A DNA stretch of 11,629 nucleotides from a bacterium (lineage in GTDB: Bacteria > UBP15 > UBA6099 > DSWB01), in NCBI GenBank assembly GCA_020061125.1, contig JAGUYV010000062.1:1-11629 (forward strand), read 5' to 3'. The notes beneath the pieces were generated by a model. It saw nothing but the letters and a program-made list of their open reading frames with translations. It made no database searches and was not told where the DNA came from. This document shows, in pieces, positions 786 through 4,768 of the stretch. A program made the translations under genes and the position numbers. The first letter of the stretch is position 1, and each line of letters starts with the position of its first letter.

Positions 786-884
786 ATGCAGCAGCACACT
801 CACAACAACGCCTTCGCCTTTAGCGGCTATTACTTTATCTGGACAAGCGCGGGGCCGCGGTTGTGGATGCGCATGGAGGCATAG
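786..884 (+). CDS. Aromatic-rich leader peptide (32 aa) of the DAHP synthase attenuator
   Basis: This short ORF encodes MQQHTHNNAFAFSGYYFIW followed by 13 more residues and TAG. Seven of 32 residues are aromatic: F10, F12, Y15, Y16, F17, W19 and W27, with five of them in a seven-residue stretch from residue 15 outward plus the two Phe just before. An AAGGA Shine-Dalgarno (772-776) sits 9 bases ahead of the ATG. The ORF lies between a good promoter and a terminator-type hairpin, immediately upstream of the enzyme that starts aromatic amino acid synthesis. This is the arrangement of the trp and pheA leader peptides of gammaproteobacteria. Its role would be to stall the ribosome when charged tRNA-Phe, -Tyr or -Trp is scarce. 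Codons 24-28 overlap the 5' strand of the antiterminator helix, so a ribosome reading to the stop would block that helix. The peptide itself probably has no function once made. Confidence 0.85.
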   Translation: MQQHTHNNAFAFSGYYFIWTSAGPRLWMRMEA

Positions 885-915
885 GCCGGCCAGAACACAA
901 AATCCACAGCCGCGG
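855..915 (+). promoter_or_regulatory. Antiterminator helix of the aromatic amino acid attenuator
   Basis: Bases 855-868 can pair with 902-915 in a continuous 14-bp helix with one G-U pair (861 with 909). The 3' strand shares bases 908-915 with the terminator stem (908-916), so the two helices cannot coexist. The 5' strand begins 12 bases after the Trp19 codon (840-842). A ribosome paused in the Tyr-Tyr-Phe-Ile-Trp run would leave it largely free to pair and allow read-through. A ribosome that reaches the stop codon (882-884) would cover it and let the terminator fold. A short upstream segment (823-827) can also pair with 854-858, placing the aromatic codons in the loop, and may act as the protector strand. 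Confidence 0.8.
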
Positions 916-946
916 GACCCGCCGCCAAGGCGACCCGCGGCTTTTT
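908..946 (+). terminator. Attenuator terminator upstream of DAHP synthase
   Basis: A 9-bp stem (908-916 with 934-942) is capped by an inner 4-bp stem (920-923 with 929-932) and a 5-base loop. It is followed by a run of five T, then CGTTT. It lies before, not after, the DAHP synthase gene, with the leader peptide stop 24 bases upstream, as expected of a regulated terminator. In read-through RNA, bases 939-946 can pair with 957-964 (8 bp), which would keep the 3' arm out of the terminator. Confidence 0.85.
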
Positions 947-984
947 CGTTTACGCCAAAAAGCCAACCAGGGGGTTCCGCAGAA

Positions 985-2181: not shown

Positions 2182-2562
2182 ATGCCGGAAAAAACCATTC
2201 TCATTGTCGAAGACGACGACGATTTGCGGAACATGCTGTATTTGCTGTTCAGCAAAGATTACAATGTGCTCGAAGCCGCCGACGGCCACGAAGCCCTGGG
2301 CCTTTACATTTCCGAAAAACCCGACCTGGTCATCACTGACAATCGCATGCCCCGCATTACCGGCCTGCAGTTCGCCATCCTCATGCACGAGGAAAAGCGC
2401 CGCCGCCGCATCCCCGTGGTGATGATCACCGCATATAAAGTCGAACCTTCGGATCTGCGCAAGGCCAACATTGACGCCTTTATCGAAAAACCGTTCGATC
2501 CCTCGGATTTGCGCGCCACCGTGGAGCGCCTTCTGAACGGCAGCGATTCCACACCCGTTTAA
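2182..2562 (+). CDS. Single-domain response regulator (CheY-like receiver)
   Basis: The 126-residue protein is one receiver domain without an output domain. The acidic pocket is in ILIVEDDDD (residues 6-14), the phospho-acceptor is D53 in VITDNRMP, the switch threonine is T83 in VMITAY, and the conserved lysine is K103 in IEKPF. Such proteins take a phosphoryl group from a histidine kinase and act through protein contacts. No kinase is encoded nearby. The ATG has no clear Shine-Dalgarno, so start choice rests on the fit to the receiver fold. It converges on the HD-GYP gene, whose stop is 54 bases away. A 5-bp hairpin over its stop codon (2554-2566) is too short to call a terminator. The alternative RR/MalT-type functions are excluded because no DNA-binding region is present. 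Confidence 0.92.
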   Translation: MPEKTILIVEDDDDLRNMLYLLFSKDYNVLEAADGHEALGLYISEKPDLVITDNRMPRITGLQFAILMHEEKRRRRIPVVMITAYKVEPSDLRKANIDAFIEKPFDPSDLRATVERLLNGSDSTPV

Positions 2563-2616
2563 CGGGCTTTCACATCAAACACATCAAATTGAAATGTTGC
2601 CGGATATACGCTTTGG

Positions 2617-3555
2617 CTATTTCTTTTTTGCGAGATTGAGCACGAACTGGCGGAACACTTCTTTGTTGAACTTGCCGGAGAAAAGTTCGTTGCGGATTTT
2701 CCACAGAGCCGGATACGGGCGCAGGGCCGCGCGGTAAGGCCGCTCATGGCAGGTGATGGCCTCGAAGCAGTCAATGAATCCTATGACCTCCGCGGGCCAG
2801 CAGAAGCTGGTGGCGCCGAAAGGATAGCCGGACCCGTTCACGCGCTCGTGGTGCTGCAGCGCCGTGAGGCATGTCTCGCGCGGCAGCAGATTCTGGCTAA
2901 GAAGCCGGTATCCTCGGATGGTGTGCTGCTTCATGACCTCGAACTCGTGGTCCGTGAGCCGGCGCGGCGCCTTGAGAACATGCGTGCTCACCTCGGTCTT
3001 GCCCACATCATGCAGCAGCGCCGCCAGACCCAGCTCCTTGCACTGTGACAGTGAGTACTGACAATAGAAGCCGAAACGGATCGTCAGAGTCATGACATTG
3101 ATTGAATGAACGGCCGTGGTGTAATCCGTGGTGACCACACTGACCAGAGTGTTAATCACATTTTCGTTCTTGAGATAATCGTCCACCAGGCGGTTCACCG
3201 TTCCCGCGGCCATTTCCACATTTTCGCTTGTGGGGCTGCGAACCGCGTCTTGAAACAGATCCACGAGTGTCTCCTTGACCCCCGCCGGGTCATTGGACGC
3301 CATGAATTCGCCAAGTTTTTCATTAAGCCCGAACTGCATTTCGCGCAATGCGCGCTGTTTGTCCTCGGTGTGATAGAACAGCGGATCCGGGTGCGCGCCG
3401 CTGGCTCTGCGCACTTCGTCAATGAACATGAATTTGGGTTTGTACAAGTCGAAGGAACTGGGGTCGCACCTATAGTAAAGCGGAGTTTCCCAGAAAAAGC
3501 GCAGATGCGCGGATTTGACGCGCACCATGTTTTTAAGCGCGGTAACCTCATCCAT
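2617..3555 (-). CDS. HD-GYP domain protein, probable cyclic di-GMP phosphodiesterase
   Basis: HD-GYP enzymes hydrolyse c-di-GMP in the cytosol using a bi- or trinuclear metal centre. With the start chosen here (312 aa) the signature residues are H150, the HD pair in LLHDVGK (H182, D183, K186), H211 in MKQHTIRGY, H235-H236 in QHHER, a GSGYP motif (241-245) and D262, so the full metal-binding set is intact. The usual HHER-x-DG reads HHERVNG, a D to N change next to the GYP motif. Residues 1-145 have no recognised domain; the segment LYYRCDP...LYKPKFMF is typical of deltaproteobacterial HD-GYP proteins. No membrane segment is visible. The ATG at 3555 has GGAAG 9 bases upstream; an in-frame ATG at 3606 would add 17 residues but lacks a ribosome site. 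It has its own promoter and lies downstream of two receiver genes on the same strand. Confidence 0.9.
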   Translation of the reverse strand: MDEVTALKNMVRVKSAHLRFFWETPLYYRCDPSSFDLYKPKFMFIDEVRRASGAHPDPLFYHTEDKQRALREMQFGLNEKLGEFMASNDPAGVKETLVDLFQDAVRSPTSENVEMAAGTVNRLVDDYLKNENVINTLVSVVTTDYTTAVHSINVMTLTIRFGFYCQYSLSQCKELGLAALLHDVGKTEVSTHVLKAPRRLTDHEFEVMKQHTIRGYRLLSQNLLPRETCLTALQHHERVNGSGYPFGATSFCWPAEVIGFIDCFEAITCHERPYRAALRPYPALWKIRNELFSGKFNKEVFRQFVLNLAKKK

Positions 3556-3681
3556 GACGAGGCGCTTCCGCGCGTGCGCAGGGTGGTCTGGTCCGCCAGA
3601 TCTCATGTCCGGTGTGCGAAAAAATTCATCTCAACCGCAAAATGTGAAGGGAGAGCGCCCGGGCGCGCGGCTGGCAACACA

Positions 3682-3710
3682 ATTATAAATTTTCGCCGGG
3701 GGGCAGTAAA
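3682..3710 (-). promoter_or_regulatory. Sigma70-like promoter for the HD-GYP gene
   Basis: Read on the minus strand, TTTACT (3710-3705, four of six -35 positions) and a perfect TATAAT (3687-3682) are separated by 17 bases. Transcription would begin near base 3675, about 120 bases ahead of the preferred start codon and about 70 ahead of the alternative one. The HD-GYP gene can therefore be expressed independently of the receiver gene upstream of it. Confidence 0.6.
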
Positions 3711-3739
3711 CGGGCTGCCGGGAATAAAAGCGGGGGGTG

Positions 3740-4132
3740 TCACGATTTGCCGTTGAGCGCGGCGCCGACCTGTTGCAGAAGCGAAACCCTGTCCACGGGT
3801 TTGGTGATGTAGCCGCGTGCGCCGGCCATGAAGCATGAGAATTTACTGGTGAGATCTTCACGGCCCGTGAACACAATGATGGGAATCCCCCGTGTGCGCG
3901 GATCCTTTGCCAGAGCGCGGCAGATGTTCACGCCATCGGCGTCGGGCAGATTCAAATCCAGGAGGATTAGTCCTGGTTTTCGCCCTACGGCCAGGCTTAC
4001 GGCATGATCCCCGTCAAAAGCGGACACGGACTCGAATCCGGCGCTGTCCAGGGCGTCGCACACCTTGCCATTGACCGCGTGATCATCTTCAACCACGAGC
4101 ACAAGTTTTTTGTCTGCCGCCAGCGCTTCCAT
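3740..4132 (-). CDS. Single-domain response regulator (CheY-like receiver)
   Basis: The 130-residue protein is one receiver domain. The acidic pocket is VVEDD (13-17), the phospho-acceptor is D59 in LLDLNLP, the switch residue is T89 in IVFTGR, and the conserved lysine is K111 in YITKPV. The start at 4132 is chosen because GAGGGA (4146-4141) lies 8 bases upstream. The frame stays open to an ATG at 4213, but the 27 extra residues look unlike a receiver N-terminus and have no ribosome site. It aligns without gaps to the receiver encoded at 4373-4768 (55 identities in 119 positions by hand count), so the two are close paralogues. No kinase or output domain is near. The HD-GYP gene follows 185 bases downstream on the same strand, which makes a functional link plausible but unproven. 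Confidence 0.92.
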   Translation of the reverse strand: MEALAADKKLVLVVEDDHAVNGKVCDALDSAGFESVSAFDGDHAVSLAVGRKPGLILLDLNLPDADGVNICRALAKDPRTRGIPIIVFTGREDLTSKFSCFMAGARGYITKPVDRVSLLQQVGAALNGKS

Positions 4133-4258
4133 GAGAACGCTCCCTCTTGCGTGTTGCGCCGCCTCATTTCTTATGTACCCAGTATGATGCCGGATTACCG
4201 CAAATTGTTTCATTTCTGTGAAATTTTTTGAAAACGCAAAAAGAGAGCTGATGCCCGG

Positions 4259-4360
4259 AAAAGGCGCGGCCCCGGCCTGTGCGCCCTGGGAGACATGGCG
4301 CGGCCGGGGACCGGCCCCGTTCCGAAATATATGTTTCGGGAGCCTCGTGGGGAAGCTCCC
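4259..4360 (-). terminator. Hairpin cluster between the two receiver genes, possible terminator
   Basis: Read on the minus strand, the gap contains a 9-bp hairpin (4338-4346 with 4352-4360), a 6-bp hairpin (4322-4327 with 4334-4339), a 6-bp GC hairpin (4302-4307 with 4311-4316) and a 5-bp stem (4263-4267 with 4281-4285) that is followed by TTTT. None is a textbook intrinsic terminator, but together they probably reduce read-through from the upstream receiver gene. The 4133-4258 part of this gap shows no convincing promoter. Confidence 0.35.
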
Positions 4361-4372
4361 AGCCGAGGGTTG

Positions 4373-4768
4373 CTAGGACAGCGTGCGCTCCAGTTCCGTC
4401 AAAAGGCTTGTTTCCTCGAACGGTTTGGTGATGTATCGCTTTGCGCCGGATACATAAGAGGAGAGTTTGGTGGTGAGATCGTTGCGGCAGGTCATGATGA
4501 TGACGGGGATTTTCTGCGTGCGTTCGCCAGCGGTGATGCTGCGGCAGATGTCTATGCCGTTCTGGTCCGGGAGCATGATGTCCAGCAGAACAAGGTCCGG
4601 CCTGTACTCGTTGGCCATGCGCAGGCCGTCGCCTCCGCAGAAGGCCTGCATGGTCTCGTAGCCCGCATCGTCCAGCATGAGGCACACGAGTTCATTCATG
4701 TCGAAATCGTCCTCGACAACCAGGACGCGTTTCCTGTCGCGGTGTTCCTGAATCGCCATGTCCGTCAT
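4373..4768 (-). CDS. Single-domain response regulator (CheY-like receiver)
   Basis: The 131-residue protein is a lone receiver. The acidic pocket is VLVVEDD (15-21), the phospho-acceptor is D63 in LLDIMLP, the switch residue is T93 in IIMTCR, and the conserved lysine is K115 in YITKPF. The ATG follows a purine-rich GGGGGA about 6 bases upstream. The short charged N-terminal stretch (residues 1-13) precedes the first beta strand. It is the closest visible relative of the receiver at 3740-4132, sharing the run DLT-K-S then GA-YITKP, which suggests a tandem duplication. It is expressed from a good promoter about 250 bases upstream and so has an unusually long 5' leader. No DNA-binding output domain is present, so the output must be through protein contact. 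The partner kinase is not in the window. Confidence 0.92.
   Translation of the reverse strand: MTDMAIQEHRDRKRVLVVEDDFDMNELVCLMLDDAGYETMQAFCGGDGLRMANEYRPDLVLLDIMLPDQNGIDICRSITAGERTQKIPVIIMTCRNDLTTKLSSYVSGAKRYITKPFEETSLLTELERTLS

Follow-up and report, generated by a model that had tools for sequence, protein, structure and literature searches.

Transcription attenuation by a translated leader is a classical mechanism. Its textbook examples respond mainly to one amino acid and control a terminal branch of a pathway, as is the case for trpL and pheL of Escherichia coli, each of which comprises a leader open reading frame (ORF), a protector, an antiterminator and a terminator. The enterobacterial ilvGMEDA leader is an example of a single leader that serves several end products of a common pathway, in that case the branched-chain amino acids. 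The leader described here shares the anatomy of trpL and pheL, its protector being a candidate one, but it stands before a gene for DAHP synthase, with which the aromatic pathway begins, and appears to read the end products of the pathway together; it is unrelated to the ilvGMEDA leader in sequence and target. It lies in a stretch of bacterial DNA of 11,629 nucleotides, the whole of which is referred to as the window.

Among the closest described systems is the aroR-aroF attenuator of Corynebacterium glutamicum, reportedly the subject of work by Neshat et al. in 2014; surveys of attenuators by comparative genomics are likewise said to have been published by Vitreschak in 2004 and Lopatovskaya in 2010. 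In two accounts of the C. glutamicum system, an attenuator with Phe-Tyr-Phe codons precedes aroF and answers Phe limitation, but not Tyr limitation (PMC11802643, PMC4046766). Both there and in the window, an aromatic-codon leader peptide precedes a DAHP synthase gene and ribosome-mediated attenuation is described or proposed. Unlike the window leader, that of C. glutamicum carries Phe-Tyr-Phe with no Trp mentioned, and it belongs to another phylum; the likeness is one of function, drawn from descriptions.

Motif uORFC-13-1 of Acholeplasma is a computational prediction of a Phe uORF before aroF (PMC8632094). It resembles the window leader in having a uORF with one or more Phe codons and a terminator before a DAHP synthase gene, and differs from it in its restriction to Phe, its extra conserved substructure and its phylum. 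Attenuation has also been proposed for E. coli aroF, and cis-elements have been predicted for aroF/aroH in Shewanella (PMC2659441, PMC8632094). These too are located 5′ of DAHP synthase genes, but they are listed as sensing Tyr-tRNA, and no three-aromatic leader is reported among them. A broad attenuator screen of 2010 states that, up to that point, leader peptide systems had been demonstrated in Proteobacteria and Actinobacteria only, and its main text makes no mention of aroF or aromatic genes (PMC2965389).

No report of a three-aromatic leader was found in the freely readable literature, subscription papers aside. A first-pass annotation of the window had regarded such a leader as undescribed, to its author's knowledge, for a deltaproteobacterial DAHP synthase gene, which is too broad given the C. 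glutamicum attenuator and the Acholeplasma uORF. As far as the freely readable literature shows, what is new is the three-aromatic specificity and its breadth. The more interesting result is that about ten phylum-level groups have type I-beta DAHP synthases with aromatic leaders.

Parts of the leader in the window

The gene downstream of the leader (985–2007; forward strand, as are all features below) encodes a type I-beta DAHP synthase with an N-terminal ferredoxin-like domain. The protein matches PF00793 (DAHP synthase family I) and PF18152 (ferredoxin-like) and scores above the cut-off of TIGR01361, in agreement with the first-pass assignment. A second DAHP synthase homologue, with 46% identity, is present in the same genome.

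An intrinsic terminator of the upstream gene (666–690), consisting of a 10-pair stem with 8 G-C pairs followed by a T-rich tail, sets the leader transcript apart from upstream transcription. Beyond it lies a sigma-70-type promoter, TTGACA-17-TAACAT (723–751), with 10 of 12 matches; it is the sole match between 500 and 1300, where shuffled sequences predict 0.1. Transcription would start near 758. A Shine-Dalgarno sequence, GGAAGGA (770–776), is followed by the leader peptide ORF (786–884), which begins at ATG 786 and comprises 32 codons: MQQHTHNNAFAFSGYYFIWTSAGPRLWMRMEA. Six putative regulatory codons fall within ten codons of this ORF (813–842), namely Phe 813, Phe 819, Tyr 828, Tyr 831, Phe 834 and Trp 840, and a second Trp codon is found at 864.

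The end of the ORF contains the 5′ strand of an antiterminator (segment 2; 855–868), which is complementary to segment 3 (902–915) over exactly 14 pairs, one of them G-U. An intrinsic terminator hairpin follows (908–942; 908–916 paired with 934–942, −27.1 kcal/mol) and is succeeded by a T run. With a loop of more than 8 bases, it escaped a simple terminator scan. The terminator and antiterminator have 8 bases in common (908–915). Two candidate protector strands were also recognized, and their role is putative: segment 1a (763–770), with 8-bp complementarity to 858–865, and segment 1b (800–806), which can form 7 bp with 860–866. Strands analogous to segment 1b were seen by eye in two related leaders, as GCAACCG/CGGTTGC in L004 and CGCCG/CGGCG in L007.

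Much of this had been proposed in the first-pass annotation: the promoter, Shine-Dalgarno sequence, 32-codon ORF and six clustered aromatic codons are present nearly base for base, as are the 14-bp antiterminator in the end of the ORF and the terminator that shares eight bases with it. The extent given there (786–964) needs a small correction, as the element begins with the promoter at 723 and ends with the T run that follows 942. When the upstream region was shuffled 3000 times with dinucleotides preserved, no shuffle yielded a leader with a terminator.

Judged by its sequence, the element is very probably a ribosome-mediated (Yanofsky-type) transcription attenuator that controls the type I-beta DAHP synthase gene behind it. 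Several features expected of such a system are present: a short ORF with a Shine-Dalgarno sequence and a run of end-product codons, an intrinsic terminator 5′ of the structural gene (both kept in the related leaders L004–L007), and an antiterminator that excludes the terminator and has its 5′ strand inside the ORF. RNA polymerase would initiate at the predicted start, followed by a ribosome translating the leader. A shortage of charged tRNA-Phe, -Tyr or -Trp would stall the ribosome at codons 10–19 and leave segment 2 free to pair with segment 3, in which case no terminator would form and the DAHP synthase gene would be transcribed. If all three were plentiful, the ribosome would reach the stop codon and cover segment 2, segment 3 would pair with segment 4, and transcription would end at the T run. 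Since a stall at the codons of any of the three aromatics would prevent termination, the leader would behave as an OR gate whose inputs are the three end products and whose target is the first committed enzyme of the pathway. A three-aromatic leader of this kind would offer a simple, testable logic by which one general DAHP synthase could meet the demand for three products.

Conservation and predicted switching in the window's phylum

Searches at the order, class and phylum levels returned an identical set of 7 genomes from 4 genera. A deltaproteobacterial phylum would be expected to include far more genomes than that, so the term "deltaproteobacterial" used in the first-pass annotation is unsupported. 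An orthologue of the synthase, with 65–66% identity, occurs in four of the six other genomes (L004, L005, L006 and L007). The lack of the ORF or helices upstream of orthologues had been named beforehand as evidence against the attenuator; all four are preceded by a TTGACA promoter at the equivalent position, an aromatic-rich leader ORF, also equivalent in position to that of the window, and a terminator. The leader peptide is MSGTTMQPDNRRAFWSGYYYYFWGHPTVARLSR in L004, with L005 and L006 being near copies, and MEAMWSKHFRGIADEGFYGYYFYFYYQPKTPGGAAS in L007. The five leader peptides share the aromatic run as well as a GYY motif and have otherwise diverged. The core of L007 is without Trp, and its antiterminator, by eye, is only ~8 bp long and bulged.

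A covariance model built from the five leaders and searched over the 7 genomes recovered those five at E ≤ 3.3e-20, with the next match at 0.086, and thus no further copies in the phylum. Paralogues at 46–48% identity (L008–L012 and L002) are without such a leader, and no aromatic leader was found for trpE or prephenate dehydratase in this phylum. The comparison with related genomes bore out the conservation of aromatic codons. Covariation of the helices was slight: at terminator pair 909:941 the window has G-C where its relatives have A-U, the remaining eight pairs are invariant, and this one double change among three distinct lineages also arose in 101 of 500 shuffles.

Folding tests were performed on a transcript in which segment 3 has been made and segment 4 has not, with the ribosome footprint masking the RNA as far as 15 bases beyond the start of the A-site codon. 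The detailed sample comprised the window leader, L004, L006 and L007 (three lineages); L005 is a near copy of L006. In the window leader, the probability (P) that segment 3 pairs with the ORF was 0.86 for ribosomes at the Phe/Tyr codons and 0.57 at Trp 840, dropping to 0.05 at codon 852 and to 0 at the stop codon. L004 and L006 gave values of 0.51–0.90 within the core, 0.26 directly after it and 0 at the stop, and the corresponding values for L007 were 0.47–0.62, 0.12 and 0. In all four, then, a stalled ribosome is predicted to free the antiterminator strand and a ribosome at the stop codon to cover it. The first-pass view of a complete ribosome-mediated attenuator is supported by this predicted behavior and by retention of the leader in four relatives.

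With no ribosome present, P was 0 for L004 and L006, where a protector helix forms, 0.39 for L007 and 0.85 for the window leader. Because antitermination is predicted for the window leader without a ribosome (P 0.85 versus 0), its protector helix looks weaker than those of L004 and L006. When the whole leader was folded from 758, the start of the ORF paired with segment 2 and the terminator formed. These models thus make it uncertain that the window leader would terminate at a basal level when it is not translated.

Aromatic leaders in other phyla and the amino acids they would read

The survey was extended to a wide sample of 138 further genomes across the domain, apparently one per phylum-level group; this sampling was checked for three phyla (G000, G036 and G123), each of which is represented by one genome in searches started outside it. 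Regions upstream of DAHP synthase genes were examined in the wide sample and in the G036 and G123 phyla for an ORF with at least 5 Phe, Tyr or Trp in ten codons, followed by a terminator. Such a leader preceded 42 of 183 type I-beta DAHP synthase genes, in about ten phylum-level groups. In comparison, the reverse-complement control gave 1 region, other sets of residues with as many codons, or nearly as many, gave 1–8 regions (partly within the same leaders), and dinucleotide shuffles predicted 0.9 (182 regions; L210 was left out as too short). Examples include MTPAVRNFWFYYFSWWRPVPVRLE (L121), MGNRKAYFFNGYRFFWGYFWFSRSPSPCVFT (L122), VYFTYFTYFNFNYYWFFGGGG (L115) and MKNVKAYFNFFFSSYYFYFFFGEAA (L100), and further leaders are those of L133, L097, L088, L110 and L089. 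Leaders of different phyla have no evident sequence in common apart from the aromatic run.

Two phyla were covered in greater depth. In the G123 phylum (50 genomes; L100 and L189–L209), a second synthase copy has a Phe/Tyr-rich leader, such as MLGRLFYGFFFGFFFYCFFSNRSVAV, together with a terminator; in genomes with two copies, searches upstream of the first found no leader. In the G036 phylum, all three genomes (L121/L157, L159 and L228) carry an FSWW leader before one of two synthase copies. Below the survey thresholds, weaker aromatic leaders with a terminator nearby were observed in L143/L235 (G031), L081 (G149) and L130/L236 (G150): MRTLGRYFGFYYPAGGALRSA; MYLAGGRFAFFGFTPVRPRARFG; MHQHGTCFYMRFIRFSLFFILCGVPLMVFA.

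An automatic switch test over the 42 leaders, L005 included, gave a median P of 0.81 for stalled ribosomes and 0.04 for ribosomes at the stop codon, versus 0.50 for leaders whose middle part had been shuffled. Several leaders, L097, L110, L185 and L212 among them, did no better than their own shuffles, and L110 and L212 do not pass the test. The last 145 bases before the L110 gene (G086) hold a very short leader, VRLFNFYFGYYWTW, with spacing unlike that of other leaders. Its complementarity is long, antiterminator-like and obvious by eye, and starts around the stop codon, a placement that the footprint model handles poorly.

Which amino acids are read was addressed with a non-circular test, in which cores were set by Phe and Tyr alone (at least 5 in ten codons). 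Trp enrichment over all leader residues had been dropped as a measure, being biased because the leaders were found by their combined Phe, Tyr and Trp content. Among the other core residues of 15 leaders from about ten groups, 15 of 113 were Trp versus 1.3% expected (p ~4e-11, a value somewhat too small since several of the 15 leaders are from one phylum). In the 16 leaders of the G123 phylum, the corresponding count was 0 of 73. Taken together, these counts indicate that Trp reading is real and recurrent, and that its absence elsewhere is likewise real. Reading of all three aromatics thus appears to be common, but not universal.

Three-way sensing is likely for the window leader on this comparative evidence. 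The first-pass claim that it reads all three aromatics accords with the presence of Phe and Tyr in every leader and of Trp in most; the L007 core, without Trp, does not follow it. Phe and Tyr probably carry most weight in control. A stronger version of the latter, in which a genuine attenuator responds in practice to Phe and/or Tyr alone and the Trp codon is incidental, is a possible reading, if clearly the less probable one. It is consistent with the excess of Phe and Tyr codons over Trp codons, with L007, with the Phe/Tyr cores of the 50-genome G123 phylum, and with the window itself, where a stall at Trp 840 brings P down to 0.57 and Trp 864 lies beyond the switch point. C. glutamicum offers a parallel, as Phe limitation alone was found to matter there despite the Phe-Tyr-Phe codons of aroR (PMC11802643). 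Against it, Trp is ten times above expectation in cores defined without it, across about ten phylum-level groups, and neither trpE nor prephenate dehydratase of the window's phylum has a leader of its own.

Specificity of the signal and its distribution among synthases

The same comparisons bear on explanations that dispense with attenuation. If the terminator were constitutive, yielding a small RNA or closing a tiny gene, the leader ORF could simply encode a small protein, and trans-acting leader peptides do exist, such as peTrpL of Sinorhizobium (PMC7298713). Yet the peptide has diverged outside its aromatic run, whereas in the tested lineages the end of the ORF stays complementary to the terminator, a relationship needless for a gene with its own terminator; this explanation is improbable. 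Still less probable is a T-box or another tRNA- or ligand-binding riboswitch with the ORF in a secondary role. Some aromatic genes of other bacteria are under T-boxes (PMC1262725), but the T-box covariance model has no match in the window, where Rfam searches at E up to 5 found no family apart from a spurious miRNA match; no plausible family was found at 16 related loci. A chance cluster of aromatic codons beside a GC-rich hairpin has a negligible probability, for although the region is GC-rich, hairpins are common, and weaker aromatic ORFs arise at random, the arrangement is absent from all window shuffles, is kept in all four phylum orthologues and exceeds expectation in the survey by 42 to 0.9.

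The distribution of the leader was followed on a tree comprising 88 synthases. Presence of the leader, used as a label, required 8 changes versus 19.7 for shuffled labels, with at least 4 changes forced by well-supported branches. L158 was wrongly labeled negative in the tree (its leader was found in L228), and L111, the positive of G085, was judged doubtful and not entered as a positive. The data fit one old origin followed by losses as well as they fit several gains. In each of the three phyla examined that have two type I-beta copies, those of G123, G036 and the window, one paralogue bears the leader and the other lacks it. The leader can also serve as a functional tag for one of the two, presumably the copy that is adjusted to the supply of amino acids. 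Somewhat more likely than not, three-aromatic leaders are a widespread and repeatedly evolved OR gate on one type I-beta copy, with certain lineages, such as the G123 phylum, using Phe/Tyr only.

Two minor observations concern the surroundings and more distant relatives of the synthase. KDO8P-synthase-like homologues L015 (G006) and L016 (G005) have one in-frame TAA each inside the match. Downstream of the synthase gene, window positions 2182–4768 encode three stand-alone response regulator receivers and an HD-domain protein.
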